DNA of 24,158 bases, taken from the IMG/VR virus record IMGVR_UViG_3300023184_000510, positions 1-24,158 of that record, one strand, 5' to 3'. The stretch is from a virus. Made by a program: the position numbers and the translations under genes. Below the pieces are notes generated by a model. It was not told the origin of the DNA. It worked only from the letters and a program-made list of their open reading frames with translations, and searched no databases. Of the stretch, positions 1 to 22,751 are shown one piece after another (position 1 is the stretch's first letter; each line of letters starts with the position of its first letter).

Positions 1-57
1 ATAAACAATTTTATCTTCTAATACTACTTTGTCTTGTTCAAAGATCTTTTCTTTCAA
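1..57 (-). CDS. Partial 5' end of a further leftward gene, product unknown
   Basis: The last 57 bases on the minus strand stay open to the window edge from a TTG codon at 57-55 and read MKEKIFEQDKVVLEDKIVY (19 residues). The frame overlaps the 3' end of the oxygenase at 38-745 by 20 bases, like other overlaps in this run, and a G-rich stretch (GGGGG) lies about 10 bases upstream as a possible ribosome binding site. The composition is protein-like and resembles the short strand-rich lead-in of the neighbouring oxygenases, but 19 residues are too few to assign a family. The TTG start is an inference. Confidence 0.35.
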   Translation of the reverse strand, partial: MKEKIFEQDKVVLEDKIVY

Positions 58-745
58 TGCTCTTAACCCCCGACTCCCTCATTACTTTCCATTCTTCAAT
101 TTCTTCAGCTTGAGCTTCTCTAATTTTTTTAAGGTCTTCTTCCCATTTTGCTTTTATTTCATCCGTATAGATAGAATCTGCATTATCCCAAAATGAACCT
201 AGTGTATATCTTTCTCCAGAATCTACGGTTGTAACCTTGTGCTCATTACCAAAACCTCCATCAAAAATTGCAAGCATTCCTATTTCGGGTTTGATTTCAA
301 TATCAAAATTTTTAAATTTAAGTAACCCTCCTGTAAAATTATCATTTAAATAAATAAATGATGCGTATTTACTTTTAGAAAATGGGGTTGGGTTACCTTC
401 TGAATCTGTATTATCTGAATGATAACTGGCATAAGAACCCTCAATCCATTTTTGAGCATGAAATGTAATTTCAGTTAGTTCTCTCCCAAATGCTTTTTCC
501 GAAATTAATTTAACTTTATCTCTAAGTTTATTAAAATAATCTGCTTCTAGCCCTAGTTTTATTAACTCTTGATCAAAAGGGAAAAATCCTTTTGCATATG
601 ATTCATAAAATGATATTGGGTTCCAGGTTATTCTTCCAGACTGATCGCAGTCGTCAAGATATTTTATTACAGCTGAACATTCTTCTGGAGTCATAAAATT
701 TTTAATTACAAAAACATCATCTTTTAAATTTATAACATCATTCAT
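38..745 (-). CDS. 2OG-Fe(II) oxygenase, prolyl-4-hydroxylase-like
   Basis: A 235-residue protein of the Fe(II)/2-oxoglutarate dioxygenase superfamily, which couples 2OG decarboxylation to hydroxylation of a substrate. The double-stranded beta-helix core carries the iron triad H109-x-D111 (YHSDN) and H169 (NEHKV), and R179 in GERYT as the likely 2OG carboxylate ligand. YLNDNFTGG at about 132-140 is the typical strand preceding the core. Residues 195-235 form a highly charged helical tail (Lys/Glu rich) that the paralogues lack. The start ATG overlaps the stop of the upstream oxygenase gene by 8 bases and has no good Shine-Dalgarno site, so translation is probably coupled. The substrate is not readable from sequence; context suggests a protein side chain, perhaps Pro in a tail protein. 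Confidence 0.85.
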   Translation of the reverse strand: MNDVINLKDDVFVIKNFMTPEECSAVIKYLDDCDQSGRITWNPISFYESYAKGFFPFDQELIKLGLEADYFNKLRDKVKLISEKAFGRELTEITFHAQKWIEGSYASYHSDNTDSEGNPTPFSKSKYASFIYLNDNFTGGLLKFKNFDIEIKPEIGMLAIFDGGFGNEHKVTTVDSGERYTLGSFWDNADSIYTDEIKAKWEEDLKKIREAQAEEIEEWKVMRESGVKSIERKDL

Positions 746-1424
746 TATTTTGTTTACCTAACTTATCAATTGTCCAAAAAAATGGGGAGGTATATCTGCA
801 ACCACTTATAACTGGTCTAACCCCATGAATATAATTCATATCTCCTGGGAAAAAATATACTCCACCCTTTTTTGGCTTAAATTGAATTGATTGATTTGGA
901 AAAAATAATTCTCCACCTTCATAATCATCATTTAAGTAAAATATTGTAGAGAGGTCATACCAGGGGAAGTCGTTTGGGGTTCCTGCTGACGGTCCGCTAT
1001 GCAGTTCCTTGTCTGCGTGTGGCACCTGCAGGCTTCCTGTAGGCCACCTTACAAGGGCTGGCCATGTAGGGTTTGCTTCTACGTTAAAAGCTTTTTCAAT
1101 TATTGGCTTTAGTCTATCTATAATTTTATGTAACATTACATTAATTTCTGGATCTATTTTTTCTAATGTATCGGTTGTTGCAACTCGGTCTTGCCAAATT
1201 CTATGGTCGTATACACAAACCCCAGCTTCATTAAAATGAGATTCGGTTATATCCCATATTGTATTATTAGATATTTTGCCGTAAAGAAAATCTATTTCTT
1301 CCTGTGTTAAAAAATTTTCAATTTCATGAATATGCTCTGGGGATTGTCCAAAGTATCCTGATGGCGTAATTGATTTTTTTTGTGTATTACTACCCATTAT
1401 ATTACCTTGATTTACTGGCTTCAT
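738..1424 (-). CDS. 2OG-Fe(II) oxygenase, prolyl-4-hydroxylase-like
   Basis: A 228-residue Fe(II)/2OG dioxygenase. The metal triad is H136-x-D138 (VPHADK) and H200 (YIHGV), with R210 in GCRYT as the 2OG-binding arginine. FYLNDDYEGGELFF at 162-175 is the hallmark of P4H-type enzymes found in many phages. About 30 residues precede the first strand. The first ATG was chosen because AAGGGAG lies 7 bases upstream; an in-frame ATG at residue 10 has a weaker site. The 3' end overlaps the next oxygenase gene by 8 bases. A 74-base gap upstream carries a possible -10 element, so this pair may have its own promoter within the leftward run. Substrate unknown. Confidence 0.87.
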   Translation of the reverse strand: MKPVNQGNIMGSNTQKKSITPSGYFGQSPEHIHEIENFLTQEEIDFLYGKISNNTIWDITESHFNEAGVCVYDHRIWQDRVATTDTLEKIDPEINVMLHKIIDRLKPIIEKAFNVEANPTWPALVRWPTGSLQVPHADKELHSGPSAGTPNDFPWYDLSTIFYLNDDYEGGELFFPNQSIQFKPKKGGVYFFPGDMNYIHGVRPVISGCRYTSPFFWTIDKLGKQNNE

Positions 1425-1455
1425 TGACTATCTCCCTTTATATCTATAGATTACT

Positions 1456-1461
1456 AGTATA
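1456..1461 (-). promoter_or_regulatory. Possible -10 box upstream of the 738-1424 oxygenase gene
   Basis: On the minus strand TATACT lies 31 bases upstream of the start codon, in the only sizeable gap (1425-1498) of this cassette. A poor -35 (TTTAAT) sits 17 bases further up. The call rests on the -10 match and the gap only. Confidence 0.3.
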
Positions 1462-1498
1462 TCGTACTATTAATAAAAATTAAACCTTTAAGCAAATG

Positions 1499-2203
1499 CT
1501 ATTCATTTACCGTCAATTTAATTGCTTTAACTTCATGTTCTCCAATAATATTGCCATTTTGATCCATTGCTCTTCTGTAAAAATCATTCCACTTACCCTT
1601 AGATTGATCTTCTGTTATTATTTGTCTATATTCTAAAATATCTATTTCTGGTTGATTTTTATCCAACTCCTCACAAGAAGTATATGTAATACTTGAGTTT
1701 TGCATTTCTGTTAAAGAAATTGGCAATATTGCAATCACTGGTGTGTTAGCCTTTATGGTTATAACTTGATTTGGCTTAGTAACTTTCCATGAGCATGGGA
1801 ATGATCCTTTAAAAAATGATGTAGACACTACAGAAAAAAATGGTTCCGCCCCTTCAATAAATTGATTTGGAACAGGCATACCTAAAAGACTTAAATTTTT
1901 ATCTGTTCTAAAAATTAATCCTGTTCGAAAATTTATTGTTCCTTGTTTTGTAGCAGAGTCAGCCCAGTTGGAGCCGCTTAATATTTTTACACTTTCTGGA
2001 TCATTATTTATTTGACCATCCCAGATAAAAGATATGTCTTCTGGAAATGAAATTGACCAGCCCAATTGGTTGGCTTGTGTTACTGGAAGGCAATGATATA
2101 CATGCTTAGTTTGTTCTTTATCCATCCAGTCTCTATTTATTTTAAGTGGTTGAATATTAGCACTAAAATCTCCTCCTGCTTTTGCAACAAATATTTCATA
2201 CAT
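1499..2203 (-). CDS. DUF6065-like protein, copy 2 of a tandem pair
   Basis: A 234-residue protein that I recognise, from memory of the family pattern, as DUF6065-like: an N-terminal NRDWMD motif (23-28), a Cys-Leu-Pro step (about 40-42), ANQLGWSISFP (46-56), FIWDG (61-65), then a VPNQFIEGAEPFFSVVSTSF core and an AILPISL strand. The function of the family is unknown. No signal peptide or membrane segment is seen and the fold looks all-beta. It overlaps the paralogue upstream by 8 bases and has a GAGG site about 9 bases before its ATG. It sits between P4H-like oxygenase genes, so a role in the same modification pathway is plausible but inferred. Confidence 0.68.
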   Translation of the reverse strand: MYEIFVAKAGGDFSANIQPLKINRDWMDKEQTKHVYHCLPVTQANQLGWSISFPEDISFIWDGQINNDPESVKILSGSNWADSATKQGTINFRTGLIFRTDKNLSLLGMPVPNQFIEGAEPFFSVVSTSFFKGSFPCSWKVTKPNQVITIKANTPVIAILPISLTEMQNSSITYTSCEELDKNQPEIDILEYRQIITEDQSKGKWNDFYRRAMDQNGNIIGEHEVKAIKLTVNE

Positions 2204-2906
2204 CAGTATTTTCCTCTACAACACTTAATCTTATTGATTTAACTTCATGTGTACCAATTTTGTTTCCTAAATGATCTACTCCATCTCGATAAAAATTAGA
2301 CCATCCTCCTGATAAATTAATTTCTCTAATTTTTTTTGAATACTCTTCTCCGTTAAAAGGCATTTTTTCCATTGTAGAAGTATTTTTAAATATAATTGAT
2401 GAATTATTAATATTGTTTAAAGACATTGGCACTATTGATACAAATGGCGTATTTGCTTTAATTGTTATTGGGACATTTGCTCTAGTTATTCTCCATGCAG
2501 CTGGCAGTGGTGCGCTAAAAAAAGAAGTTGAAATACTTGCTGTAAAAGCTGTTGCTCCGTCAATAAATTGATTGGGGACTGGCATTATTACAATAGTGGT
2601 ATCTTCTTTTGTTTTTAATAGAATACCTGTTTCAAAACTTATTGTTGCATTTCCCCTTGCTGGCGAACAATATTTATTACCTTCAAGAATTTTTACATGG
2701 TCTGCAGAATGGTCGGATATGCCATCCCAAATAAATGTAATGTCTTCTGGAAATGAAAGTCCCCAGCCTAATTGATTTGTTAGGCTAACGGGAAAACATT
2801 TATATGCATGTGCTTTATATGTTTCATCCATCCAGTCTCTGTTTACAGATAGGGGCTTGATTATTGCTGAATTTTCTCCAACTCTATAAGCTATTATTTC
2901 ATTCAT
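2196..2906 (-). CDS. DUF6065-like protein, copy 1 of a tandem pair
   Basis: A 236-residue paralogue of the gene immediately downstream. It shares NRDWMD (22-27), NQLGWGLSFPEDITFIWDG-type spacing, MPVPNQFIDGA, STSFF, an IVPMSL strand and the C-terminal pattern NFYR.G.D..GN.IG.HEVKSI.L.V. The pair evidently arose by tandem duplication and has since diverged substantially. AAAGGT lies about 7 bases before the ATG. No catalytic motif of a known enzyme class can be named. The two proteins could act as a heterodimer or on different substrates; this is speculation from tandem retention. Confidence 0.68.
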   Translation of the reverse strand: MNEIIAYRVGENSAIIKPLSVNRDWMDETYKAHAYKCFPVSLTNQLGWGLSFPEDITFIWDGISDHSADHVKILEGNKYCSPARGNATISFETGILLKTKEDTTIVIMPVPNQFIDGATAFTASISTSFFSAPLPAAWRITRANVPITIKANTPFVSIVPMSLNNINNSSIIFKNTSTMEKMPFNGEEYSKKIREINLSGGWSNFYRDGVDHLGNKIGTHEVKSIRLSVVEENTDV

Positions 2907-2920: not shown

Positions 2921-3589
2921 TTAATTTACAAAAAGCTCTCTATATTTCTTTTCTATTTCACGATATTCTGGTGTATGTGGGGCTGCGTGCCAGTCTAGCA
3001 TAGTTACCAAAGAATATTTTTTTCCACTTCTAACTGGCATTGCTGCATGTGAATAAATAAATGAAGATGGAAATATATACAGGTCTCCCTTTTTTGCTTT
3101 AATTGGAAGGTCTAGTTTATCAAAGTATAACTCTCCGCCCTCATAATCATCATTTAAATATCCTACAAGTGAAACTGTTGCTATATAAGAATATCCATGA
3201 TCAGAGTGTACTTTAAAATGTTGACCTGGACCATATTTAATTAAATTCATAGCTTCCATATAGTTCATTACTACGCCATGCTTTGAACAATAGTCTTGAA
3301 TTGCTGGTTGCATGGCATCATAACAATCTTGCCAAATTTCATCTAGCGCTATTTTTTGTGGAATTTTGCCTGTTGGATCATCTGTTAATTTTCTTAATTT
3401 AACATCTGAGCAGTCTCTGTATTGCAACATTTCTGTTTTAAAACCAACAGTAGCGGGAACCCATCTAGTATCCTCATCTGCTTCATCTTTTAAAACCTTT
3501 TCAGCTCTAGGAATAATTTTTAATTCTTCAGGTAAACAATTTCTATAAACTAAGATTCCTGGGGCTACTACTTCTACACTTGTATACAT
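2921..3589 (-). CDS. 2OG-Fe(II) oxygenase, prolyl-4-hydroxylase-like with Lys as 2OG ligand
   Basis: A 222-residue dioxygenase. The triad is H128-x-D130 (VHSDHG) and H181 (YSHAAM). The position that is Arg in most neighbours is Lys (K190/K191 in SGKKYS), as in true prolyl-4-hydroxylases, where Lys binds the 2OG carboxylate. YLNDDYEGGELYF at 144-156 is canonical. This makes it the best candidate in the window for a genuine peptidyl-proline 4-hydroxylase. AAAGG about 7 bases upstream supports the ATG. It lies 14 bases upstream of the DUF6065-like pair and 19 bases downstream of the Asp-hydroxylase-like gene, within one apparent operon. Confidence 0.88.
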   Translation of the reverse strand: MYTSVEVVAPGILVYRNCLPEELKIIPRAEKVLKDEADEDTRWVPATVGFKTEMLQYRDCSDVKLRKLTDDPTGKIPQKIALDEIWQDCYDAMQPAIQDYCSKHGVVMNYMEAMNLIKYGPGQHFKVHSDHGYSYIATVSLVGYLNDDYEGGELYFDKLDLPIKAKKGDLYIFPSSFIYSHAAMPVRSGKKYSLVTMLDWHAAPHTPEYREIEKKYRELFVN

Positions 3590-3608: not shown

Positions 3609-4181
3609 TTATTTTACCATACTATTTGGTAAAATGTCAATAATTAAATGTACCCTATTTAAATTAGTTGGATTTGAAACTGAATGGGGTAAAACATTAT
3701 TAATCTCATAGCAAACCCCTTCTTTCATATTAATTGTATTGTCTTTAACGGTAAATAAAATTTCCTCATTAGTTATTATTGGAATATGGCACCTTCTAGC
3801 AAAATTTAAAAAAGAACCTCCATCAACATGCTTTCTAATGCTAGTATTTGACATCATTTTAATAAACTCTACTCTCATTATTTTGCCATCATAAAAATAT
3901 TCTAATTGTTTATAAATATTACTAAGCTCTTCTTGTGCAGCTGTGTTTTTTAACTCATACCTTTTTTTAATTATTGCTTTATTCCCTGGCTCCCAATCAT
4001 AGGATGATTGTAAAATAGGGTAACATTCTGTATTTTTATGAGTATAGGCATTGTCTTGTCTTCCAGTATCTAAAAACCATTCTGTATCATATAGTAAAAT
4101 TTCTTTTTTAATATTAGATATATCAAAGCTATCTCTTTGTATAATAGTCCATGAACTATTTTTTTTCAATTGATTTGACAT
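3609..4181 (-). CDS. Aspartyl/asparaginyl beta-hydroxylase-like dioxygenase
   Basis: A 190-residue protein with the layout of the Asp/Asn beta-hydroxylase domain (PF05118 type). In numbering from the chosen start, H118-x-D120 (KHVDGG) is followed by RRCHIP (about 129-134), a strand LFTV, a Met-x-x-Gly turn (MKEG), H166 in LPHSVSNP and R176 in RVHLIID. HxD, the distal His and the Arg are the expected Fe(II) and 2OG ligands. The start at 4181 is preferred over an in-frame ATG five codons upstream (4196) because GAGG lies 9 bases before it; the upstream ATG has no site. The gene overlaps the sulfotransferase by 26 bases. It may hydroxylate Asp/Asn/His of a virion protein, or a small molecule; the substrate is unknown. 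Confidence 0.78.
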   Translation of the reverse strand: MSNQLKKNSSWTIIQRDSFDISNIKKEILLYDTEWFLDTGRQDNAYTHKNTECYPILQSSYDWEPGNKAIIKKRYELKNTAAQEELSNIYKQLEYFYDGKIMRVEFIKMMSNTSIRKHVDGGSFLNFARRCHIPIITNEEILFTVKDNTINMKEGVCYEINNVLPHSVSNPTNLNRVHLIIDILPNSMVK

Positions 4182-4860
4182 AATTATAAACCTCATAATC
4201 TACTAAATTCATTTCTTTAATTCTTTTAATTTGATCTTCATTAATTTCTATTTTTATTTTATGAGATTGATTAGCTTTATCAGAATTTTTAAAAATATTA
4301 AATCCAAATTCTTCTTTTATTGCACCTGAAAAATCTTCTTTAAATTTATTAAGATTCTCTATTGTATAGGCATTGATTCCCTCTAATGATTTTTTTATAT
4401 CATTAAATTCTAAAGAATAATTTTCTATGTACCAGCCATGTGCAACTCTATGAAGTTGACTTGTTAAATTTAAATTAAATTTATCAATGTTTATAGATCC
4501 TGTTAAAAATTTTGATTGCATATTACTTTGTATTTCAGACTGCTGACCCCATAGCCAATTACTTAATTTATATTCAGCTTCCTCTTTAGTTCTTATTTGT
4601 CCTGTTGTATAATTAAAATAACTAATAAACCTTTCAACTGGATCTCTTAAAACAGTAAATACTTGTGGAGATTTCATTTGATCAATTGGCATTCTGCCAA
4701 AATGACCTATTACAAATTTAGAATCAGAGATTTCTTTTGTATCTATAAATGTTCTATTTGATGCAAAATGCTTTATACCATTTGCAAGTAAATTAGGAAT
4801 TACATTGTTCCTAATATACACTCCAGATGTTCTTGGAATGTGCAAATGGTATATAGACAT
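4156..4860 (-). CDS. PAPS-dependent sulfotransferase-like protein
   Basis: A 234-residue protein with both cofactor motifs of the sulfotransferase superfamily (Sulfotransfer_2 type, as in heparan sulfate O-sulfotransferases). The 5'-phosphosulfate loop is HIPRTSG at 7-13, and the 3'-phosphate-binding motif is VLRDPVERFISYF at 70-82 with the conserved Arg and Ser. VIGHFGRMP at 50-58 is typical of the region between them. The enzyme would transfer sulfate from PAPS to a hydroxyl (sugar, hydroxylated side chain or Tyr). AAGGG lies 8 bases upstream of the ATG, inside the end of the Hint-domain gene one base away. A sulfotransferase next to hydroxylases and a Pro-rich virion protein suggests sequential hydroxylation and sulfation, which is inference. 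Confidence 0.82.
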   Translation of the reverse strand: MSIYHLHIPRTSGVYIRNNVIPNLLANGIKHFASNRTFIDTKEISDSKFVIGHFGRMPIDQMKSPQVFTVLRDPVERFISYFNYTTGQIRTKEEAEYKLSNWLWGQQSEIQSNMQSKFLTGSINIDKFNLNLTSQLHRVAHGWYIENYSLEFNDIKKSLEGINAYTIENLNKFKEDFSGAIKEEFGFNIFKNSDKANQSHKIKIEINEDQIKRIKEMNLVDYEVYNYVKSIEKK

Positions 4861-4861: not shown

Positions 4862-6187
4862 CTAGAAGCCCTTTTTATTGTGAACTACTAGTCCTCCTGC
4901 AATAATGATATCCACTGGAAGAGCATCAACCTGGTAAACAGATCTTTCTTCATCAATTGTATCAATATAAACAACAACGTCTTCGTAAAAAGCATGAGTA
5001 TCATTGTTAAACTTCATCAAAGAATCTCCTACTTCTACAGTACCTGTTGTAATAAACATCCAGGTATTTCCTCTTTTTACAAGAATTGTTTGCTCTAAAG
5101 AAAATCTTTCATTTTCATTTTTATTAAAATAAACTGTAATATCTTTTTTAGATTCAATAATATTTGTAACATATGTTGGCTTTAATGCAATATCTGTTAA
5201 AGCTGGCGCCGTCCAAGTATACGGATCTGAGCTTGCTTCATCAATAAGCTCATTCCAATTTGCTGCCCAAATTGCATCTCCAACAAGCAGGTGCTTAGCC
5301 ATTTTCCATGAAACTGTTCCATCTAATCCTATAACAGCAATTAATGTGTCTTGATCAATACAGAAAAATGGTGGGGAAAAGAATACTGGTGGGGCAAAGA
5401 ACCCTGGCGGATTAAAGAACCCTGGTGGATTAAAGAACCCTGGTGGATTAAAGAACCCTGGTGGGGAAAAGAACCCTGGCGGATTAAAGAACCCTGGTGG
5501 GGCAAAAAATCCTGGTGGGGAAAAGAACCCTGGCGGCGCAAAGAAAGCTGGTGGAGAAAAGAATGACGGCGGAAAGAATGGGGCTAGTGTTGTAATAGTA
5601 GCCGTTACTGCTGCCAAAGATGTTCCGTTTGCATTAATTGCATAAATAGAATAGTTTTGTGACGTATTTGCAACTTCAGTAAATACTGAGGGTGATGTTG
5701 CATTTGTACGTGTTGGGCTTTGTACCGTATCAGATGAAACAATAGTATAAGATGTTATTGCCGATCCTCCAGTAGCTGGTGCTGACCAAGAAACGCTGTC
5801 CTGGTTTGCAACAGTTGAAACTGCTGAAGGTGAAATTGGAGCTTGTGGAACTGTGGTTGCAGTAATAGATGCACTTGCTACAGATGCATTTCCCGTTCCA
5901 ACTGCATTTGTTCCTGTTACTGTAAATGTATAAGCTGTGGCTGATTGCAATCCAGTTACAACAATTGGTGAAGATGCTCCAGTTGCGGTGTATCCACCTG
6001 GTGATGATGTTACAGTAAAGGATGTTGCTGCAGCTCCAGAAGTATCTGGTGTAAAAGCAACTGATGCTGATCCATTATTATATGGTCTTGAGGTGCCTAC
6101 ATTTGTTGCTACTGGTGATAATGGTGCTTTTGGTTGAAGAAAATCGTTTGCTGCTTGAGATTTTCTTCCTACTTTTCTTATTGCCAT
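4862..6187 (-). CDS. Fn3 x2, PPGFF-repeat and C-terminal Hint-domain virion protein
   Basis: A 441-residue modular protein. Residues about 21-113 and 114-201 are two fibronectin type III-like domains (SYTIVSS, YTFTVTGTNAVG patterns), common in phage tail proteins. Residues 202-275 are about twelve hexapeptides [S/A/N]PP[G/A/V]FF. C276 directly after the repeat starts a Hint (intein/hedgehog-like) domain: CIDQDTLIAVIG block A, LLVGDAIWA, EVGDSLM, and GGLVVHNKKGF with the terminal His436-Asn437. The residue after Asn is Lys, not Cys/Ser/Thr, and the usual block-B His seems to be Gln366. Self-cleavage rather than splicing is therefore the more likely activity, if any. AAAGGAG precedes the ATG. 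The gene follows the fibre genes and immediately precedes the modifying enzymes. Confidence 0.83.
   Translation of the reverse strand: MAIRKVGRKSQAANDFLQPKAPLSPVATNVGTSRPYNNGSASVAFTPDTSGAAATSFTVTSSPGGYTATGASSPIVVTGLQSATAYTFTVTGTNAVGTGNASVASASITATTVPQAPISPSAVSTVANQDSVSWSAPATGGSAITSYTIVSSDTVQSPTRTNATSPSVFTEVANTSQNYSIYAINANGTSLAAVTATITTLAPFFPPSFFSPPAFFAPPGFFSPPGFFAPPGFFNPPGFFSPPGFFNPPGFFNPPGFFNPPGFFAPPVFFSPPFFCIDQDTLIAVIGLDGTVSWKMAKHLLVGDAIWAANWNELIDEASSDPYTWTAPALTDIALKPTYVTNIIESKKDITVYFNKNENERFSLEQTILVKRGNTWMFITTGTVEVGDSLMKFNNDTHAFYEDVVVYIDTIDEERSVYQVDALPVDIIIAGGLVVHNKKGF
5363..5578 (-). repeat. 18-bp tandem repeat encoding [S/A/N]PPGFF hexapeptides
   Basis: About twelve in-frame 18-bp units (core, read on the plus strand, aaccctggtggattaaag) encode alternating Pro-Pro-Gly and Phe-Phe. 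Several central units are identical at DNA level, which implies recent expansion or homogenisation. The outermost units are degenerate (PPSFF, PPAFF, PPVFF, PPFF). The repeat ends exactly at the Hint-domain cysteine. Confidence 0.9.
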
Positions 6188-6215: not shown

Positions 6216-9071
6216 TTACGCTGTTAGATCTCCATAGATAACCCATGTGTTAGCTGCTCTCTTAAATAGTGTACATGATGACCATGTAGTTCTCAATTTG
6301 AGACCTGGTGTTCCATTAACTGTTACTGTTCCATCTACTGGTGCAATTGTAACTTGTCCTGCGCCAGTTTGTAGTATGTCAATTGCTGTTCCGACTGGAT
6401 ATGGAACTGATGCATTTGTTGGAATTGTAAGTGTTATTGCAGTTGCTGAGCCCATTTCAATTAATGAATCTCTTTCTGAAAGTGAAGATAGTGTATATCC
6501 TGCTGTTTTTGCAATAATTGGTGTTCTAGAAACAACACCTTCTGCTGTTTGTGCACCGTCTGTAAATTGTATTCCAGCTGCCGCAACAGTAACTACGCCT
6601 GTAAATGTAGGTGTTGCAATTGTTGGAGAAGTAATAGATGCTCTTGAAGTATCTACTGGATGAACGTGATCAACACGAGCATATTTTGCAGAAGTTCCCA
6701 CTGCCGCAGTTCCGTTCATTGGTGAAGTTGTTGATGCGGCTTGTCCAATAACAAATGCTGTTGTTGCAATTTGTGTTGTATTAATATCTGCCACAGCAGT
6801 TGGTGCTAGTGGAACTCCTGCTAATGTTGGGCTAGTTGCAAACACTAGTGAGCCAGATCCTGTTTCATCTGTTAATGTAGAAGCAAGATTTGCGCTAGAT
6901 GCTGTTCCAAGGAATGTTGCCATACCAGTTGAAAGAGCTGTTATTCCAGTTCCTCCATTTGCTACTGCTAATGTGCCTGTGACTGCAGATGCTGGTAAAT
7001 TTGTAAATGTATTAGATGCTCCACTTATACTCTTATTTGTAAGAGTATCAGTTGTATCTTTTCCAACTAAAGTGTCTGTGGCTGCTGGAAGTGTGAGTAC
7101 ACCAGATGCAACACCTGATGCTTGAAGTTTTGTACTTCCGCTTGTTGCACCTGAATGATTCATACCATTTGATATAGTTGGAAGTGTAATTGATGAGCCT
7201 GTTGGAATTGTAACTGTACCTGTAAATGTAGGTGAAGCTGTTGGTGCTTTTAGGCCAATGCTAGTTGTAAGTGTTGTAGATAGGGATGCATCATTTCCAA
7301 GAGCAGTTGCAATTTCTCCAAGAGTATCTAGAGTTGAACCTGCGCTACCTACAAGAGCTGCTACTTCTGCACGAACAAATGCTGTTGTAGCAATTTGTGT
7401 TGTATTAGTTGCTGCTGATGCAGTTGGAGCGGTAGGTGTTCCAGTTAGTGCTGGTGAAGCAAGAGATGCTTTGAGTCCCAATGCTGTATCCAAACCTGAA
7501 ATCTTTGAAGTTGCAATTTCTGCAGATGCGTTAATATCTGCATCTAGAATTGCACCATTTGCAATTTTATCTGATGTAATTGCTGAATCAGCAATATCTG
7601 CTGTTGCAATTGTTCCATCTACAATCATAGATGAAGTTACTGTACCCAATGGTAGAGTTACTGTACCTGTAAATGTTGGTGAATTAAGATTTGCTTTTAA
7701 TGCCAGTCCTGAGTTAACGGTTGCAGTTAATGCAAGTGCTGATGTATCAGCAATTCCATGTACGCTTGTTGTGGCTGTGTTGTGTGTAGCAATTTTTGTG
7801 TCTGCTGCTGTTGCTGCTGCTGAAGTTGCTGCAGACTGCGCTGCGGTAGCCTTAGTGCTAGCATCTGTTGCTGCTGCTGCAATTGCTGCTGTTTGAGCTG
7901 CATCTGCTTTAGTAGTAGCATCTGTTGCGGCTGAAGAAATTGCTTGTGATTTAGCTGTTGCAATATCTGTAGTAAGTGATGTACTAAGAGCCGTATCTGC
8001 TGATGTTGCAAATGACTGTGCTGCAGTTTGAGCTGCATTAGCCTTAGATGTTGCATCGTTTGCTGCAGTTGCAACACCATTACCTATTGATGTTGCAACG
8101 CTTGTTGCAAAATTAGCATCATTTCCTAATGCTGCTGAAAGCTCATTAAGTGTATCAAGTGCTGATGGAGCTGAAGCAACAAGAGCTGCTACTTCTGCAC
8201 GAACAAATGCTGTTGTAGCAATTTGTGTTGTATTAGTTGCTGCTGATGCAGTTGGAGCTAAAGGAGTTCCTGTCAATGTTGGAGAAGCAAGTGGGGCTTT
8301 TGCATCCAATTGTGTTTGAACTGCGCTAGATGTTCCATTTAAATAATTAAGTTCTGCTGAAGTTGCTGTAACTGCATGAAGTTTAACCAAATCACCATTG
8401 ATTATTCCTGATGAATGAATTTGATTTAATTCTGTTGCTGTTGAAGACAAAACAACATTTTCATTAATTTTTGGCGATGTTAATGTTTTATTTGTGATTG
8501 TTTGAGCTTCATCTTTTAAAACAACATCTGATGTTACTCCTACTGTTAGTGTTCCAGCTGTGTCATTATAAGTAATTCCTACTCCAGTAGATGGGATTAA
8601 AGCTGCTCCAATTACATCTTGTACTGTTTCTGTAATATTTAATTCTGATGCTGGTACTTTTCCGTCTGAGCCAAGTGATGCAACACCTAGTATTGCTCCT
8701 CTATCAGTTACTGGAATAAAATCATTTGCTGTTGAATTACTTAGTGATGATACTTGTCCATCAACATAAGCTCTTGTTGCAACAACTGCTGAATCAACAT
8801 TAATGGTGATTGTATTTGCTCCGTCATTGTATGTCTTTGAAAGACCTGAACCCATAGTAAGGGCAGTATAGATAGCATCTTGGGAAATTTCACCAATTGC
8901 TGCTGCATCAGATGCAGCATAAGAAAGAGCTGTCCATGTATCTGTTCCATTACCAAATTTAAATTTATTTGTATCTGACTCTACGCCCATTTCGCCTGCG
9001 GCTAAAATTGGATTTACTGAGGTCCACTGTGAAGCTATTCCTCTTCTTACTTGAATTCTTACTGTTGACAT
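6216..9071 (-). CDS. Large tail-fibre protein with Mtd-like N-terminal module
   Basis: A 951-residue structural protein. Residues 1-54 (RIQVRRGIASQW, AGEMGVESDT, FKFGNGTDTW) match the N-terminal module widespread in phage receptor-binding proteins, including the major tropism determinant. The rest alternates beta-rich fibre repeats (SPxLTGTPxAPTAS, NTTQIATTAFV, three copies, two of them nearly identical), an Ala-rich 19-residue-type coiled-coil stretch around 340-450 (DATTKADAAQ units), a VANGGTGIT turn and a HVHP segment near 815. The C-terminus (YTLSSLSERDSLIEM, ITLTIP, GTAIDILQTGAGQVTI) is a common short-tail-fibre end. It probably forms a trimeric host-contacting fibre. AAGGGG sits 6 bases before the ATG. 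Confidence 0.85.
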   Translation of the reverse strand: MSTVRIQVRRGIASQWTSVNPILAAGEMGVESDTNKFKFGNGTDTWTALSYAASDAAAIGEISQDAIYTALTMGSGLSKTYNDGANTITINVDSAVVATRAYVDGQVSSLSNSTANDFIPVTDRGAILGVASLGSDGKVPASELNITETVQDVIGAALIPSTGVGITYNDTAGTLTVGVTSDVVLKDEAQTITNKTLTSPKINENVVLSSTATELNQIHSSGIINGDLVKLHAVTATSAELNYLNGTSSAVQTQLDAKAPLASPTLTGTPLAPTASAATNTTQIATTAFVRAEVAALVASAPSALDTLNELSAALGNDANFATSVATSIGNGVATAANDATSKANAAQTAAQSFATSADTALSTSLTTDIATAKSQAISSAATDATTKADAAQTAAIAAAATDASTKATAAQSAATSAAATAADTKIATHNTATTSVHGIADTSALALTATVNSGLALKANLNSPTFTGTVTLPLGTVTSSMIVDGTIATADIADSAITSDKIANGAILDADINASAEIATSKISGLDTALGLKASLASPALTGTPTAPTASAATNTTQIATTAFVRAEVAALVGSAGSTLDTLGEIATALGNDASLSTTLTTSIGLKAPTASPTFTGTVTIPTGSSITLPTISNGMNHSGATSGSTKLQASGVASGVLTLPAATDTLVGKDTTDTLTNKSISGASNTFTNLPASAVTGTLAVANGGTGITALSTGMATFLGTASSANLASTLTDETGSGSLVFATSPTLAGVPLAPTAVADINTTQIATTAFVIGQAASTTSPMNGTAAVGTSAKYARVDHVHPVDTSRASITSPTIATPTFTGVVTVAAAGIQFTDGAQTAEGVVSRTPIIAKTAGYTLSSLSERDSLIEMGSATAITLTIPTNASVPYPVGTAIDILQTGAGQVTIAPVDGTVTVNGTPGLKLRTTWSSCTLFKRAANTWVIYGDLTA
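7351..7430 (-). repeat. 80-bp exact direct repeat, copy A
   Basis: Identical over 80 bases to 8179-8258. It encodes APTASAATNTTQIATTAF and flanking residues of the fibre (about residues 548-574). Perfect identity in a low-identity surround points to gene conversion or recent duplication. Confidence 0.9.
8179..8258 (-). repeat. 80-bp exact direct repeat, copy B
   Basis: Second copy of the repeat at 7351-7430, encoding about residues 272-298 of the same 951-residue fibre protein. Recombination between the copies would delete 828 bases in frame. Confidence 0.9.
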
Positions 9072-14818: not shown

Positions 14819-16753
14819 CTATGCTGATATATCTACAAGCTCGCAATTTCCATCAGAACTACATGCAAGCGTGGCAGATGGTGATGTCCCATCTTCTGTC
14901 TCATAAAAAGATAGATCTTCCCAACGAATATTGTTAGGCGTTTTTGCAACAAGTGTTTCATATTCTTCTTTTGAAACTTCCTGGTACGGAGCTTGCTTAT
15001 ATGTGTGATCGGAATGTGGCAAAAATGAAATACCAGATACTTCATCAAAATTCTTATACACCCAAGCGCCAACCTCCATCCATTCTTCTTCTTTGACAGA
15101 AACTGTAATTGAAGGTTTATGTTCACACCATGCACGTTGATAAACTAACCAAATATTTAAATGATCAATTGCTGTAAGGTCATTCCTAACAATTGCTCCG
15201 TCTGGAGCTTTAACGGGAAATGAAAATACATAAGTATCGTTTGGCTTCATTACATCATCTTCAACTGGAATGCCAACTTCTTTTAAAAATGTAGAAATTG
15301 GATCTCCTTTTGAACCTCTAACGGTTCTAATATAATATGGAGAATGCCACGGGTGCATTCCTGATGATACCCCAACTAATTGTGATACTGTTCCTGAAGG
15401 CTTTACACATGTAATGGCGGCAGATTCAGAAATTCCAATTTTTTCAGCCTCTTCTTTATTTACTTCTCTTGCTTTTTCACGTAATGTCATTAAAAATGAT
15501 TCAAGCATAACCAAATCTTCTTTCCCAGACATAAATTTATGACCAAACTGTCCTGTTAAAGAAACTCCCAACAACCTTTCTTCTTCTGTGTTATCTTTCC
15601 ATATTTTACGAATATATTTAAAATCTGTAAGCGTAGATTGCCATGTTCCAAGTATTGTTGCTAATTCTACTTTTCTTTCAATATCTTTCTTTGTATCATT
15701 TTCACGCAATACAACTTCGGAAAGATTACAAAATTGATAAGGCCTAAGAATAATTTCTGAGCAAGGGTTAGTTCCATAATGAATGCTTGGGTCCCTTCTT
15801 CCAAACTTTGCAGCCTGTGCTTGAGCTGCCGCAACATTATAAATTCCACGTTCTCCCGACTTTGAGTCATATAAAGATTTCCATTCTGCAATAAATTGCT
15901 CCATTTCTGGTTTACGTGAATAAGCAACAGAATTATTAGATAGTGCACGTTGTGGGCTTGCTTCCCACCAATTGCCTGATTTTGCTTGAGCCATTTCAAT
16001 GTCATTAATATTTGAAAGAGAAATCATTGCTGATCGTCTAACTCCACCGACAACAACAACCTCACCAATTTTGCACATAATGTCATGACACTCAATTGGC
16101 TTAAGATTTCTGCCTGCTGCATTTTTAAATTTAGCAATAGTAAAATCAAAAAGATTAATTAATGGCTGTGGACCAGAAGAACGACCACCCATTGTTTTTA
16201 ATCTTGCACCAGCCGTTCTAACTTTTGTTACATCAATTGCTGGAATGTGTCCTGTCCAAAGAAGAGCAAGTAATTCACGATATGCTTTAGCCCATCCTTG
16301 TTTTGAATCTTCAACTACAATAACAGTGTCTGATTTTTCAAGTTTTTCTGGAACGGCGGGAAGTTTATTAATGTACTTGTATTCTACTGAAAATCCAACA
16401 CCTGTTCCGCACATTAAAACATACATAGTTTCATCAAATGAACGAGGAGAATCTACTGGTAAAAATGCACAATTGTAACCCGCAACATTGTCTCTTTCTA
16501 GTGCTGCTCCTGATGTCATAACGGAACGCATTGAAGGCATTACATTTCGTTTAAATACAAACTCTTTTAATTCCGCAACAAGCTTTTCATTTGGAATATA
16601 ATTGTAATTTACCTTTAAATGGTTAGTCATAAAATTAAAATATCTATCTACTGTTTCTCCCCATGTTTCTCTTCGTGCTTCTACTTCTACCCATTTTGCA
16701 TATCTAGATAAAGCAATAAAGTTTTCATAAGGATTTTCAATAGTTTGTAACAT
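14819..16753 (-). CDS. nrdJ: Class II (adenosylcobalamin-dependent) ribonucleotide reductase, monomeric RTPR type
   Basis: A 644-residue reductase converting ribonucleotides to deoxyribonucleotides for phage DNA synthesis, using adenosylcobalamin to generate the thiyl radical and needing neither oxygen nor a second subunit. Key residues: C95 (GYNCAF) and C342 (QFCNLSE) as the active-site redox pair; C331-x-E333 with N329 (TNPCSEI) as radical cysteine and base; KPSGTVS at 451-457 as phosphate-binding segment; C631 and C637 (LACSSDGNCELV) as the C-terminal dithiol shuttle. Spacing between C331 and C342 equals that of C408/C419 in the Lactobacillus enzyme. It is shorter than the roughly 740-residue Lactobacillus enzyme, as phage versions often are. 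No start-proximal strong SD: AAGG lies 11 bases upstream. Confidence 0.93.
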   Translation of the reverse strand: MLQTIENPYENFIALSRYAKWVEVEARRETWGETVDRYFNFMTNHLKVNYNYIPNEKLVAELKEFVFKRNVMPSMRSVMTSGAALERDNVAGYNCAFLPVDSPRSFDETMYVLMCGTGVGFSVEYKYINKLPAVPEKLEKSDTVIVVEDSKQGWAKAYRELLALLWTGHIPAIDVTKVRTAGARLKTMGGRSSGPQPLINLFDFTIAKFKNAAGRNLKPIECHDIMCKIGEVVVVGGVRRSAMISLSNINDIEMAQAKSGNWWEASPQRALSNNSVAYSRKPEMEQFIAEWKSLYDSKSGERGIYNVAAAQAQAAKFGRRDPSIHYGTNPCSEIILRPYQFCNLSEVVLRENDTKKDIERKVELATILGTWQSTLTDFKYIRKIWKDNTEEERLLGVSLTGQFGHKFMSGKEDLVMLESFLMTLREKAREVNKEEAEKIGISESAAITCVKPSGTVSQLVGVSSGMHPWHSPYYIRTVRGSKGDPISTFLKEVGIPVEDDVMKPNDTYVFSFPVKAPDGAIVRNDLTAIDHLNIWLVYQRAWCEHKPSITVSVKEEEWMEVGAWVYKNFDEVSGISFLPHSDHTYKQAPYQEVSKEEYETLVAKTPNNIRWEDLSFYETEDGTSPSATLACSSDGNCELVDISA

Positions 16754-17809: not shown

Positions 17810-18019
17810 ATGAATGAAGAAGAGGTAGCTCCTTCTGCTTTAGAAGATAATTTGCCTATGGTGACCTATATTATGCTTCATAGAATATATGATTTATTGA
17901 CGCTTATATCTAATAAAGTTGTTGGTGGCGATGATACTCAAAAAATGGTAGAATATCATGAGCAAGGGTTTTTATTAGGTCCAAACCCATCTTATAACAC
18001 AGGAGAACAAAATGAATAA
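17810..18019 (+). CDS. Small acidic protein of unknown function
   Basis: A 69-residue protein. An acidic N-terminus (MNEEEVAPSALEDN) is followed by an amphipathic helix around MVTYIMLHRIYDLLTLISNK and a polar tail. I do not recognise it. The ATG at 17810 is chosen over the in-frame ATG at 17798 because GAGG lies 7 bases upstream of it. It overlaps the next gene by 8 bases. Overlap, a good ribosome site and sequence composition support it as real. Confidence 0.68.
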   Translation: MNEEEVAPSALEDNLPMVTYIMLHRIYDLLTLISNKVVGGDDTQKMVEYHEQGFLLGPNPSYNTGEQNE

Positions 18020-18289: not shown

Positions 18290-18295
18290 GTATTA

Positions 18296-18309: not shown

Positions 18310-18453
18310 ATGGCAAAAAATCATTTTTCAAATACATTAAATAGTCCCTATTTTCGGATTGATGAAAATCAAAAACCTTGTTTTTGCGGTAAATTAACTT
18401 GCAGAATTGAAAATATCTTTAAAAAAATATTTAACAAGAATGGCAAAAAATGA
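18310..18453 (+). CDS. 47-aa Cys-rich small protein
   Basis: A 47-residue protein: MAKNHFSNTLNSPYFRIDEN, then QKPCFCGKLTCRIENIF and a Lys-rich tail. CxCx4C (C24, C26, C31 by my count) may bind metal. Three signs support it: its stop overlaps the methyltransferase start as ATGA (4-base overlap, coupling), an extended -10 box lies 5 bases before the ATG, and the composition matches the neighbours. Function unknown. Confidence 0.6.
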   Translation: MAKNHFSNTLNSPYFRIDENQKPCFCGKLTCRIENIFKKIFNKNGKK

Positions 18454-19166: not shown

Positions 19167-19907
19167 ATGTTCTCAGATAACCCAAACCTAATTCAAGTAG
19201 CTCCTAAAGTATGGATCTATAAAAACTTTATATCAGCTGAAGTTGTTAAGCAGATTAATGACCAGATGGTTAAAAAAGCTGAAATAATTGGCGATGAGTG
19301 GAAAACCACTATGACTCATGCTATTGATTGGTACACAGATAAATCTGGTCCAGTCATTTTGCAACTTAGAGATATATGGGCTCAGGCATCTGAACTAATT
19401 GCTCCAGAATATATTATTCATCCTAATGAGTGTCTTCTTGTTTTTTCAGAGGGCGACGAGATGTTTATTCACTCAGATTCTCCTGGAGAAGAAATGGCAT
19501 CTGAATTAACTCAACATGATAGATGGAATACATGCTGTGTTTTACATTACGGTTTATGTATTTATTTTGGAGATTTTGAGGGTGGCGAAGTATTTTATCC
19601 TAATATATCTTCAGAAGGCGTAGTAGTGGGACTTGAAGGAAACGAAAATTGTTTAGAAGTTTCAGTAGAGCCTGGAGATCTTGTTATTCATGGTGCTTTA
19701 GAAGATTATGCTCATGGAGTAAGAAAAGTTACAAAGGGTTCAAGATATACTTTTTCTAACTTTGTTCTTCCTAAAGAAAAAAATCCTGGAACATTTCCAA
19801 ATTATGGAACTCCTGAAAATGTAGAAAGAAATAAGGGTATTCGATTTGATGACTGGAATATCGCTGCTCCTGAAGGAACATTTACTGAAACAAATAATAG
19901 ACACTAA
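19167..19907 (+). CDS. 2OG-Fe(II) oxygenase, paralogue of the 22035-22751 gene
   Basis: A 246-residue dioxygenase. The triad is H102-x-D104 (IHSDSPG) and H183 (YAHGV), with R193 in GSRYTF as 2OG ligand; DFEGGEVFYPN at 136-146 precedes the core. It aligns along its whole length with the 238-residue protein at 22035-22751: both begin MFS[DN]xP, share IYxF/YKNxISA, W.PxxDLW-like region, HxDSPG and the GDLxIHG turn. A 50-residue C-terminal extension is specific to it. Its start is apparently leaderless. Substrate unknown. Confidence 0.87.
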   Translation: MFSDNPNLIQVAPKVWIYKNFISAEVVKQINDQMVKKAEIIGDEWKTTMTHAIDWYTDKSGPVILQLRDIWAQASELIAPEYIIHPNECLLVFSEGDEMFIHSDSPGEEMASELTQHDRWNTCCVLHYGLCIYFGDFEGGEVFYPNISSEGVVVGLEGNENCLEVSVEPGDLVIHGALEDYAHGVRKVTKGSRYTFSNFVLPKEKNPGTFPNYGTPENVERNKGIRFDDWNIAAPEGTFTETNNRH

Positions 19908-19925
19908 TATATATAATATATAGTG
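19902..19925 (+). terminator. AT-rich hairpin at the end of the 19167 oxygenase gene
   Basis: CACTA...TAGTG inverted repeat with an AT-rich inner stem and a one-base bulge, overlapping the stop codon. It is weak as a terminator because no U-tract follows. It lies between convergent genes. Confidence 0.35.
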
Positions 19926-19975
19926 CAAAATTGAAGTGCGAAAAAAGTGCGGCGAAAGTAGAGACCCTTTAATAT

Positions 19976-20173
19976 TTAGGGTATAGTTCTATTGCAGAAA
20001 CTTGGTATATATTTATCATCTGAAGTAAATTTGTATAATAAATCCATTAATGATTTACAGCTTATATGGCTTTCTAGGTACCATATGTCACATACCCCTT
20101 CATCTACATTCAAACATTCGGCTAATTGGCCTTCTATGACCTCTAAGACCCATTCTAGATCAACTTGTGGCAC
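19976..20173 (-). CDS. Small protein of unknown function downstream of an oxygenase gene
   Basis: A 65-residue protein from a GTG start: VDLEWVLEVIEGQLAECLNV, DIWYLESHISCKSLMDLLYK, ending FCNRTIP. It is acidic and mostly helical with four Cys. It starts 3 bases after the stop of the 331-residue oxygenase and ends just before the convergent gene, so it fits the gap, but the ribosome site is weak (GAAG). An opposite-strand frame at 19992-20351 overlaps the oxygenase and is judged false. Moderate confidence that this is a real gene. Confidence 0.5.
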   Translation of the reverse strand: MPQVDLEWVLEVIEGQLAECLNVDEGVCDIWYLESHISCKSLMDLLYKFTSDDKYIPSFCNRTIP

Positions 20174-20176
20174 TAA

Positions 20177-21172
20177 TTATTCTTCATTTTCAGATCTTAT
20201 GACACATAGGTTCAAATCTCGGTCTTTTACAAGGTCTTCTTTCTTTTTGAATATACTGACCATATTTGCACCATTTCTAAAACCAACCTCTCTAGTGTCG
20301 GCAATAATTTTGCCCCATTCTTCTTCTGTGTGTTTATTTTTTTCAGCATAATATTCAGGCGGGAAATCGGTAGTAAGAAAACACCTAATAAAAAACTTAT
20401 GTCCTTGTGTAATTGGGAAAACGCCATGATATAAATCTGAACGAAACATAATAATATCTCCAGCTTCAGGCTTATATATAATAGGCTGATCTATAAGTTT
20501 ATATTTGAACGTTTCTCCATTTTCATTAGTATATTCTTTATCTTTGGAGGTATCCATATTAACAAAAGATAACTCTCCACCCTTATAATCATCATTTGGA
20601 TAAACAGTTAGTGTGTATGCATGAGAAGTAGCTCCAAGCCATGGGGCTCTATCTGTATGATGAAGCATTGTATACTCTGTTCCGTCAATTACTGTAGTTG
20701 TACTCTCATTTGTCTCATTGTAGTCAAGTATTAATATGTCAGCACATCCCCAACCTGTTCCAGGGACTTCAGATTCTTTTGTTGGTAAATTTGGAGAAGA
20801 TCCTAGTCTTTTAATATAGTCTAGATCTATATATTTTTCTTTATAGATAGCAACTGCATCCCAAAAGGCCTTTTTAATTTCTTTTAATACATAGGCCCCA
20901 TCAGATGTATTTGACTCAAGTCCTTTATCATCTGGATTTAGTCCTTTTAATATTCCCCATGGAAACCAGTCTTCCCATTCACCAAAATAAGGATCTGATC
21001 CATCCTGTGATTTTCTAATGATACTCATTACTCTATCTGGGTCTTCAAATACATTTTTAAACACTATAACTGTAGGTGCTACCAGGTAGTTATCCATTCT
21101 TTTATGTTTAATTTTGACCTTGCTATCATATAGCCCGCCACAATATCCTTCAGATGTTTCAAAATGTTCCAT
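20177..21172 (-). CDS. Large 2OG-Fe(II) oxygenase
   Basis: A 331-residue dioxygenase, the longest of the set. The triad is H172-x-D174 (LHHTDRAP) and H249 (LYHGV). The 2OG ligand is probably K259 (GHKF), with R263 nearby. YPNDDYKGGELSF at 191-203 is the P4H-type strand. An insert at about 205-230 (DTSKDKEYTNENGETFKYK) lengthens the core, and an N-terminal 100-residue region with WEDWFPWG is not found in the paralogues. The C-terminal 60 residues are charged. TATAAT ends 5 bases before the ATG; GGGG is 11 bases away, too far for a good SD. Substrate unknown. Confidence 0.85.
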   Translation of the reverse strand: MEHFETSEGYCGGLYDSKVKIKHKRMDNYLVAPTVIVFKNVFEDPDRVMSIIRKSQDGSDPYFGEWEDWFPWGILKGLNPDDKGLESNTSDGAYVLKEIKKAFWDAVAIYKEKYIDLDYIKRLGSSPNLPTKESEVPGTGWGCADILILDYNETNESTTTVIDGTEYTMLHHTDRAPWLGATSHAYTLTVYPNDDYKGGELSFVNMDTSKDKEYTNENGETFKYKLIDQPIIYKPEAGDIIMFRSDLYHGVFPITQGHKFFIRCFLTTDFPPEYYAEKNKHTEEEWGKIIADTREVGFRNGANMVSIFKKKEDLVKDRDLNLCVIRSENEE

Positions 21173-21183
21173 AATTAATTATA
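21173..21183 (-). promoter_or_regulatory. TATAAT five bases before the 331-aa oxygenase ATG
   Basis: On the minus strand TATAAT (21183-21178) is followed by TAATT and the start codon, the same layout as at 18310, 19167 and 22751. There is no TGn extension here, and a distant GGGG could act as a weak ribosome site. Confidence 0.5.
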
Positions 21184-21193
21184 CCCCTTTATT

Positions 21194-21727
21194 TTAGTCA
21201 ACTGGATTAAAAAACATAACAAATACAGTTCTTTCTCCTGATTGTATTGTTTCTACTTGATGTGGTAAATCTCTTCTTCCATCAAAATATATTAATGTGC
21301 CAGGCAATGGCTTAATTTTAAAATTTATTGTAGTGAAGTTAATTTCTCCGCCTATATACTGATCATTAAAATAAAATAATCCACTATATATCTGTTCTTC
21401 TTTTCCACTTTCTTTTGAAGCTGCACCATAATCTGTATGTAAGTCTCCAAAATATCCTTTTGACATTGTATGGACAAAACATCTCTTTAAAACAAGATCC
21501 CTCTCATATTCTTTTTCTAATTTAATTTTTGTTTTTTTATATATGTCAAGGATGCCTGTTTTTATACTATCTTCTAAATTATTAAAATCAGACTCTGTTG
21601 TTGCAGTCCAATGTGTCTTAATATATTCTGGCCCGCCCAAACTTTCTATATTTAAAAAGTGAGTTAAATAATTTTTAGTTGTTTCAGGATCAACAAAATT
21701 AATTTGTACTATGGGACCTAATGTCAT
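21194..21727 (-). CDS. 2OG-Fe(II) oxygenase, prolyl-4-hydroxylase-like
   Basis: A 177-residue compact dioxygenase. The triad is H97-x-D99 (LHTDYG) and H156 (LPHQV), with R166 in GERTVF as 2OG ligand; FYFNDQYIGGEINF at 118-131. It is shorter than its neighbours and lacks extra domains. The frame stays open 15 codons further up (ATG at 21772), but the start at 21727 is chosen because AAAGG lies 5 bases upstream and the likely promoter overlaps the longer version. Substrate unknown. Confidence 0.83.
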   Translation of the reverse strand: MTLGPIVQINFVDPETTKNYLTHFLNIESLGGPEYIKTHWTATTESDFNNLEDSIKTGILDIYKKTKIKLEKEYERDLVLKRCFVHTMSKGYFGDLHTDYGAASKESGKEEQIYSGLFYFNDQYIGGEINFTTINFKIKPLPGTLIYFDGRRDLPHQVETIQSGERTVFVMFFNPVD

Positions 21728-21742
21728 ATAAACCTTTCGCTT

Positions 21743-21772
21743 ATAATACATTATACTACATATCCTAGTCAA
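21743..21772 (-). promoter_or_regulatory. Candidate promoter for the 177-aa oxygenase gene
   Basis: On the minus strand TTGACT (21772-21767, 5/6), an 18-base spacer and TATTAT (21748-21743, 5/6). Transcription would begin near 21736, leaving a very short leader. Confidence 0.5.
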
Positions 21773-22034
21773 CTAGTTTATATACTATATATAATATTTT
21801 TGTATTTTCTTTTAATGATAACTTCCAGAATTTTTGCATACAACCCCTATACCCCAATAAAGAAAAATTTATTAGGAACCCCGAAATTATCCTATTATAA
21901 GTAAGTAATTCATCGGTTAGAGCTGTAGCTTTTATCTGAAAGAAATAACTTCCGTCATCATCGCACTTAGAGTTTAACCCCTTGATATTATCTCCGAAAA
22001 CTGTCCAAGGTTAGAAGTGTAGCATTTTAAAATT
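21773..22034. other. 262-base gap without a convincing gene
   Basis: Lies between two leftward oxygenase genes. It is AT-rich at the left and mixed at the right. A 29-codon plus-strand frame (21815-21904) reads MITSRIFAYNPYTPIKKNLL and then stops; it has no ribosome site. A D-arm-like string (21906-21925) does not extend to a tRNA. It may hold a decayed gene or the 3' end of the upstream transcript. Confidence 0.4.
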
Positions 22035-22751
22035 TCACTTGTCAATATCGCCTAAAAGCCAATTTTTAACAGAAATTTTAGATCTATCTCCAATTTGTTT
22101 AAAATAGTTTTTGCTTTTATATTTAAAATACTTTGCGCTGTCTGCATCTATTGAATTAGATAAAAAACAATTAAATGCATATCTTGTGCCAGAGGTTACT
22201 GCGTATGTACCATGTGATTGCAATTCACCAGATCCGTGTATAATTAAATCTCCTTGTTCTGGCTTAAATTTAAAACAATTTTCTGAATAACCATTTAAAT
22301 TTTTTGTTCCGTCTGGAGTTAAATATGGATAATAAACTTCTCCGCCCGTAAATTCACCTAAATATGCAACCATTCCGTAATCTATAGAATGGCATGTTCC
22401 ATAGGGATCATCAACAGTTACTTCTTCCGAATGTTCTTTTCCTGGACTATCTGCATGTACATACATTCCATCTTGACCAGGGATGCTCCTCATAAATTGT
22501 GCTTTAGGGCCTAAAAAATAATCAGGATATACAAGATCAGATAGATTCTCCCAAAGATCTAAAGCTTCTGGAATAAATCTACTTACTCTTGAGTCGTACC
22601 AACTAATTCCACTATCAGAAACTAAAAAATCTTTTTCCTCTAATGTATTTAATATGCTTACATAACGATTTGCCATATCTGCTGAAATATAATTTTTAAA
22701 TAAATATATTTCCTCGGCAATCTCTACACACCCTGGTTTATTTGAAAACAT
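22035..22751 (-). CDS. 2OG-Fe(II) oxygenase, paralogue of the 19167-19907 gene
   Basis: A 238-residue dioxygenase. The triad is H99-x-D101 (VHADSPG) and H180 (QSHGT), with R190 in GTRYAF as 2OG ligand; EFTGGEVYYPYL at 133-144. It is clearly homologous over its length to the protein at 19167-19907 on the other strand, implying duplication with inversion or independent acquisition of relatives. Its C-terminus (KYKSKNYFKQIGDRSKIS) is shorter and basic. It has an apparently leaderless start behind a consensus TGATATAAT. Confidence 0.87.
   Translation of the reverse strand: MFSNKPGCVEIAEEIYLFKNYISADMANRYVSILNTLEEKDFLVSDSGISWYDSRVSRFIPEALDLWENLSDLVYPDYFLGPKAQFMRSIPGQDGMYVHADSPGKEHSEEVTVDDPYGTCHSIDYGMVAYLGEFTGGEVYYPYLTPDGTKNLNGYSENCFKFKPEQGDLIIHGSGELQSHGTYAVTSGTRYAFNCFLSNSIDADSAKYFKYKSKNYFKQIGDRSKISVKNWLLGDIDK

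Follow-up and report, generated by a model that had tools for sequence, protein, structure and literature searches.

A tail-side cassette of prolyl-hydroxylase-like oxygenase genes adjoins the gene for a proline/phenylalanine-repeat protein in an aquatic phage fragment and its relatives

The window analysed here is a 24-kb linear fragment (24,158 nucleotides) of an aquatic phage, IMG/VR record IMGVR_UViG_3300023184_000510, carrying tail-fibre genes, a class II ribonucleotide reductase (RNR) gene and eight genes for 2-oxoglutarate (2OG)-Fe(II) oxygenases. The left-hand oxygenase genes belong to a cassette, conserved in order among related phages, in which several prolyl-hydroxylase-like enzymes are encoded next to a tail-region protein with a proline/phenylalanine (PPxFF) repeat, a link overlooked by the first-pass annotation of this DNA. 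We propose, tentatively and at close to an even chance, that the left-hand genes form a conserved cassette modifying a virion protein and that the prolyl 4-hydroxylase (P4H)-like enzymes hydroxylate the PPxFF repeat of the protein encoded at 4862-6187. No description of such a cassette was found in the literature searched (open-access text only), and it is the arrangement that seems new; the enzymes belong to a known superfamily and their copy number has precedent.

All eight open reading frames (hereafter named by their first coordinate: 38, 738, 2921, 3609, 19167, 20177, 21194 and 22035) were present, and each of the eight proteins contains HxD, a distal histidine and an arginine or lysine 9-12 residues past that histidine. 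The first-pass annotation was thus right that the ligands are intact, and also in describing two clusters of diverse oxygenases. On sequence grounds, seven of the eight belong to a single PF13640/prolyl-hydroxylase-like family and the eighth (3609) to PF05118. In the family-profile search suggested in that annotation, 38, 738, 2921, 20177 and 21194 scored above the PF13640 cut-off; 19167 and 22035, which are paralogues (35% identity, E 3e-44), scored below it. Iterated profiles grown on related contigs from three seed sets (38, 738, 2921 and 21194; 19167 and 22035; 20177 alone) converged on the same ~316-319 proteins, including all seven PF13640-type window proteins, and 19167 and 22035 were assigned to the family because these profiles include both. 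A search of viral contigs with 22035 as a single sequence found no relatives, which reflects the limit of single-sequence seeds. The motif was retained in 156 of 160 non-redundant homologues, far beyond chance; HAD/H/R was invariant in the 738-like alignment (13 orthologues, 52-63% identity), as were HxD, H and K191 in the 2921-like alignment (23 sequences), and every subfamily aligned kept its active-site residues. The nearest PDB entry to 3609 was L-proline cis-4-hydroxylase (4p7w, E 3.8e-4). The listed start codon of ORF 21194 is TTG; translation may instead begin at an ATG further on.

The AlphaFold2 model of 22035 (mean pLDDT 91) predicted a double-stranded beta-helix fold, which the other window oxygenases would share by homology. 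It matched PHD2, Bacillus anthracis P4H and an algal P4H in complex with (Ser-Pro)5 (Z 14-15; Foldseek E ~1e-7). Among PDB matches to the profiles of three subfamilies, procollagen prolyl 3-/4-hydroxylases came first, followed closely by lysyl hydroxylases and PKHD enzymes; prolyl 4-hydroxylases were the best matches of the 2921-like profile. Pfam, the converged profiles and the predicted fold of 22035 therefore leave little room for the possibility, raised at first annotation, that several of the proteins lack the dioxygenase fold. The window enzymes have the predicted fold, HxD...H and the Arg/Lys ligand in common with peptidyl P4Hs (B. anthracis 3ITQ/5HV0, Chlamydomonas P4H-1 2JIG/3GZE, 5C5T and human PHD2/EGLN1), but they are only ~13-17% identical to them in the fold matches, occur as several divergent copies per cassette and have a substrate that is proposed here. 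Excerpts of a Phold study of phage EGLN3-like proteins (PMC12774648) report that phage 2OG oxygenases widely resemble prolyl hydroxylases in structure; those excerpts contain no cassette, repeat protein or proposed substrate.

The association between the repeat protein and the 2OG genes was assessed in contigs fetched by their RNR, a sample blind to both the repeat and the 2OG trait, with a high repeat score defined as 20 or more. All 11 RNR-fetched contigs with a high Pro/aromatic score carried a tail-side 2OG array (at least four 2OG genes in full maps). Four contigs (G006, G011, G024 and G028) had neither a 2OG gene nor a comparable repeat protein (a weaker repeat, YYAAPQ, occurs in G024), and two (G005 and G010), with single-proline FTPFGF repeats, had just two tail-side 2OG genes; G003 and G007 are without part of the cassette region. 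Independently, 2.9 million viral contigs were scanned at the DNA level for the PPxFFxPPxFFxPP pattern; among the matches listed were 75 in-frame loci, of which the 56 with at least 2 kb downstream were considered testable. A 2OG gene lay within 4 kb downstream of 49 of these 56 PPxFF loci among the matches listed, versus 5 of 44 collagen-like GPx loci (Fisher p 4e-15, a value that overstates independence because the contigs are related). Several of the seven exceptions among the matches listed resemble second upstream repeat-protein copies or early-ending fragments. The GPx control is imperfect, because at the DNA level its pattern is a palindrome (GGNCC) and picks out GC-rich contigs preferentially.

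The gene order in joined relatives was tail fibre (6216-like), fn3 and Pro/Phe repeat protein (4862-like), 2OG (2921-like), one or two DUF6065 genes, 2OG (738-like), 2OG (20177-like), 2OG (38-like) and a further 2OG, followed by a block of larger conserved genes that we take to be packaging and head genes. This order was seen in dozens of contigs. The window reads the cassette from right to left, with two extras, the sulfotransferase gene 4156 and the PF05118 gene 3609, a variant also present in ~10 contigs (L207, L220, L224, L240, L257, L258, L270, L274, L276 and L284). The cassette accompanies RNRs 85-95% identical to that of the window as well as others only ~30% identical to it, and is therefore not restricted to a single genome backbone. 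On the far side of the RNR gene is cluster B (19167-22751), a place where relatives also carry 2OG genes in variable number.

The repeat of the 4862-6187 protein varies in form among relatives (FFAPPG, FFPFFPPYF, FSPPLFF), remaining rich in proline and aromatic residues. The Hint/intein-like assignment of the protein's C-terminus draws its support from relatives, whose matches to Intein_splicing (E 1e-6 to 3e-5) fall below the cut-off; the window copy matches weakly (E 0.1). This region (window 4865-5362) is kept in some relatives and replaced by short tails in others. The sole match to the protein in 50,697 phage records was 26% identical, over the Hint-like end. In contig G008 (L150:4180-5736), another Hint-type protein, this one with PPVVVNTD repeats, directly adjoins its own 2OG gene; it has a different proline-rich repeat with the same type of neighbour.

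The first-pass annotation considered one or a few such genes per phage familiar and eight striking, which proved to be overstated. PF13640 genes were found in 26 of 30 related contigs, and relatives of ~100-115 kb hold 3-15 each (15 in G059, 12 in G057). Cyanophages usually hold one to five 2OG oxygenases, with up to five in the Sullivan set (PMC3037559), and cyanophage S-SCSM1 has 24 2OG-Fe(II) oxygenase genes (PMC9602691); eight was therefore rejected as an exceptional count. The marine cyanophage sets resemble that of the window in being phage-borne, in their PF13640/phrog_61 family and in their many diverse copies (PMC3037559, PMC9602691), but the closest cyanophage proteins are just ~30% identical to the window enzymes. 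In the FastTree subfamily tree, which has several long branches, the 738-like, 38-like and 2921-like proteins formed well-supported groups, each drawn from one cassette position across different phages, and 19167 and 22035 were the only pair of window genes in one closer group. Recent tandem duplication was rejected, given the age of the subfamilies and the low identity of most gene pairs. The choice between duplication and acquisition raised in the first-pass annotation thus resolves, judging by the tree, in favour of anciently diverged, separately maintained paralogues inherited in order, because the genes fall in separate old subfamilies, several of which have orthologues at the same cassette position elsewhere. 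A host origin of the 738-like gene was rejected, with a single match in 84,980 genomes, on a probable phage contig. That contig (L447, 5.3 kb), binned with a Chitinophagaceae metagenome-assembled genome, is probably a misbinned phage fragment.

Peptidyl proline hydroxylation is the simplest account of the cassette because prolyl-hydroxylase-like enzymes adjoin the repeat protein. Several P4H-like Fe(II)/2-oxoglutarate hydroxylases, one per old subfamily, would be catalytically active on prolines of the repeat encoded just upstream. Different substrates, considered probable in the first-pass annotation, are one possibility for these differing subfamilies, but all of them may act on this one protein. 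The PF05118 hydroxylase (3609) and the sulfotransferase (4156) would put further marks on the protein in this variant, sulfation possibly following hydroxylation. Modification would stiffen or decorate the tail protein, presumably in the virion, altering its stability, host-surface binding or recognition; the Hint-like domain may have a part of its own. The DUF6065 proteins could be helpers in scaffolding or substrate presentation, which is a guess, and cluster B would do the same job as the cassette. The fuller version of this proposal, a multi-enzyme modification line dedicated to the Pro/Phe-repeat tail protein and yielding hydroxyproline-rich, possibly sulfated fibres on virions, we hold with distinctly less confidence, as a possibility below even chance. 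A precedent is offered by chlorella virus PBCV-1, with a virus-encoded P4H and evidence for 4-hydroxyproline in viral proteins, as summarised in a secondary source (Eriksson 1999, cited in PMC9301287); PBCV-1 is an algal virus, not a tailed phage, and the set of enzymes with DUF6065 proteins, and with a sulfotransferase in this variant, sets the present system apart from what that summary describes. Accessory genes for 2OG-Fe(II) oxygenases, widespread in phages and without known substrates, are usually explained by host nitrogen metabolism, and the conserved proline-rich neighbour is a concrete candidate substrate that could be checked cheaply by mass spectrometry. If the proposal is true, tailed phages have prolyl hydroxylation of virions, and their many genes of this kind reflect virion chemistry rather than metabolism.

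Besides the relatedness of the contigs, several points weigh against hydroxylation of the repeat protein. Likeness to the P4H family leaves the substrate open, as PF13640 includes lysyl and PKHD hydroxylases and PKHD matches occur in the same lists. Adjacency could reflect plain linkage within the tail module, a real confounder; in G001, G002 and G026 no 2OG gene adjoins the second PPxFF copies, and cluster B has no adjoining repeat protein. A single P4H would be enough for one repeat type, yet many enzymes are encoded here. The enzymes might instead act on large tail fibres, other virion proteins, host proteins or surface glycans or lipids, the PPxFF protein being a conserved neighbour only. 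The great diversity of the subfamilies, the position of cluster B away from the repeat protein and the 2OG genes that relatives carry elsewhere are consistent with such targets, as are the resemblance of the sulfotransferase to galactose-3-O-sulfotransferase and the weak glycosyltransferase match in the variant cassette; B. anthracis P4H modifies EF-Tu, according to the title of PDB entry 5v7y. We nevertheless judge other targets unlikely, given that the Pro/Phe-repeat association is specific relative to the GPx control and absent where the repeats are absent.

A purely metabolic role, in which 2-oxoglutarate is burnt to succinate, shifting the nitrogen or energy state of the host, has been proposed for cyanophages (PMC3037559) and restated (PMC9602691). 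It appears improbable here, because one enzyme would be enough and an ordered, subfamily-specific set unneeded, and because it predicts no link to the tail module or to proline repeats. Some phages use 2OG enzymes for DNA or nucleotide hypermodification, and TET/JBP- or AlkB-like oxidation would fit the match of the cluster-B profile to the Naegleria Tet-like dioxygenase (E ~1e-7), the predicted dUTPase-like fold of DUF6065 and the PHROG name 'DNA endonuclease' for relatives. That match, however, ranked below prolyl hydroxylases, which came first by both sequence and fold; the Pfam scan of the window oxygenases gave PF13640 and PF05118, with no Tet/JBP or AlkB family at E <= 1, and the cassette is situated among tail genes, making this explanation very improbable. 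Least credible of all is that the set has no special function and is a loose accumulation of selfish or degenerating morons next to the tail genes, an idea that the differing copy number among relatives would suit and that was already disfavoured by the retention of the ligands (156 of 160 homologues) and the conserved order and orthology.

Table 1. Features of the window, with coordinates, strand and supporting evidence.
Feature	Coordinates	Strand	Evidence and remarks
Possible ninth 2OG gene (start only), frame running past left edge	1..61	-	MKEKIFEQDKVVLEDKIVY; position in relatives
2OG-Fe(II) oxygenase, 38-like, late gene of tail cassette	38..745	-	PF13640 32.7 bits; HSD...H...R; clade of 10 rows, support 99
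2OG-Fe(II) oxygenase, 738-like, most conserved orthologue, directly after DUF6065	738..1424	-	PF13640 35.9 bits
DUF6065 protein, second copy, conserved cassette member	1499..2203	-	PF19541 112 bits; 46% identical to 2196; by profile no 2OG oxygenase
DUF6065 protein, predicted dUTPase-like beta fold	2196..2906	-	PF19541 106 bits; model pLDDT 93
2OG-Fe(II) oxygenase, 2921-like, Lys as 2OG ligand	2921..3589	-	PF13640 51.3 bits
PF05118-type hydroxylase	3609..4196	-	PF05118 55.2 bits (cut-off 22.6); recurs at same place in other contigs
Sulfotransferase	4156..4860	-	PF03567 27.8 bits (cut-off 22); phrog_3347 galactose-3-O-sulfotransferase, E 3e-10
Tail-region protein with fn3 domain, PPxFF repeat and Hint/intein-like C-terminus; proposed substrate	4862..6187	-	fn3 above cut-off; weak minor-tail-protein match phrog_6977
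Pro/Phe repeat (FFxPPGFFxPP..., residues 203-275), proposed hydroxylation target	5363..5581	-	22 overlapping PPxFF/FFxPP matches
Tail fibre protein with Mtd_N domain	6216..9071	-	PF18454 44.9 bits; several tail-fibre PHROGs
B12-dependent (class II) RNR	14819..16753	-	Lineage marker
2OG-Fe(II) oxygenase, 19167-like, cluster B	19167..19907	+	PF13640 16.5 bits, below cut-off; converged family; HSD/H/R
2OG-Fe(II) oxygenase, 20177-like, large (331 aa)	20177..21172	-	PF13640 33.2 bits
2OG-Fe(II) oxygenase, long-branched subfamily	21194..21772	-	PF13640 40.3 bits
2OG-Fe(II) oxygenase, related to 19167	22035..22751	-	PF13640 21.1 bits, below cut-off; model matches PHD2 and algal/bacterial P4H, Z 14-15

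A ninth 2OG gene at the left edge is plausible: in relatives, the gene after the 38-like gene is another 2OG in 32 of 37 cases, and the left-edge peptide MKEKIFEQDKVVLEDKIVY is too short for proving homology.

The DUF6065 paralogue pair (window 1499-2906) is constant in the cassettes of relatives. The model aligns with dUTPases over 110-130 residues (Z ~11, ~10% identity); a role for these proteins as hidden extra oxygenases was rejected, as they have no HxD motif and their structural matches are to dUTPases rather than to oxygenases. No DUF6065 relatives were found among 50,697 phage records, and a literature search for the family found none. Two other arrangements were observed. The variant cassette of L047:9995-18017 and of G005 and G010 combines FTPFGF repeats with DUF6065-like proteins, a weak N-acetylglucosamine (GlcNAc)-transferase-like protein, a short-chain dehydrogenase/reductase (SDR; 17319-18017) and just two 2OG genes; a family search of its unidentified genes gave no clear family besides the SDR and the sub-threshold GlcNAc-transferase match. 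A second layout, in other phages (L221, L233, L237, L243, L253, L265, L267, L272, L280 and L282; one contig of 205 kb), has the repeat protein, a 2OG gene in the opposite orientation and then a 2OG gene and DUF6065.

The RNR was 83-96% identical to the window copy in the best 80 viral contigs. Its closest phage match, at 65%, was to Streptomyces phages, which hints at an actinobacterial host. A DNA search of deposited phages for near-identity to the window gave no match, and promoter and terminator scans gave signals not above those of shuffled sequence. A methyltransferase-like protein (18450-19154), with weak RrnaAD/PrmC matches, is encoded directly upstream of oxygenase 19167, and the tail protein encoded at 9554-11365 consists mostly of AAATDATTKANAAQ-type repeats.

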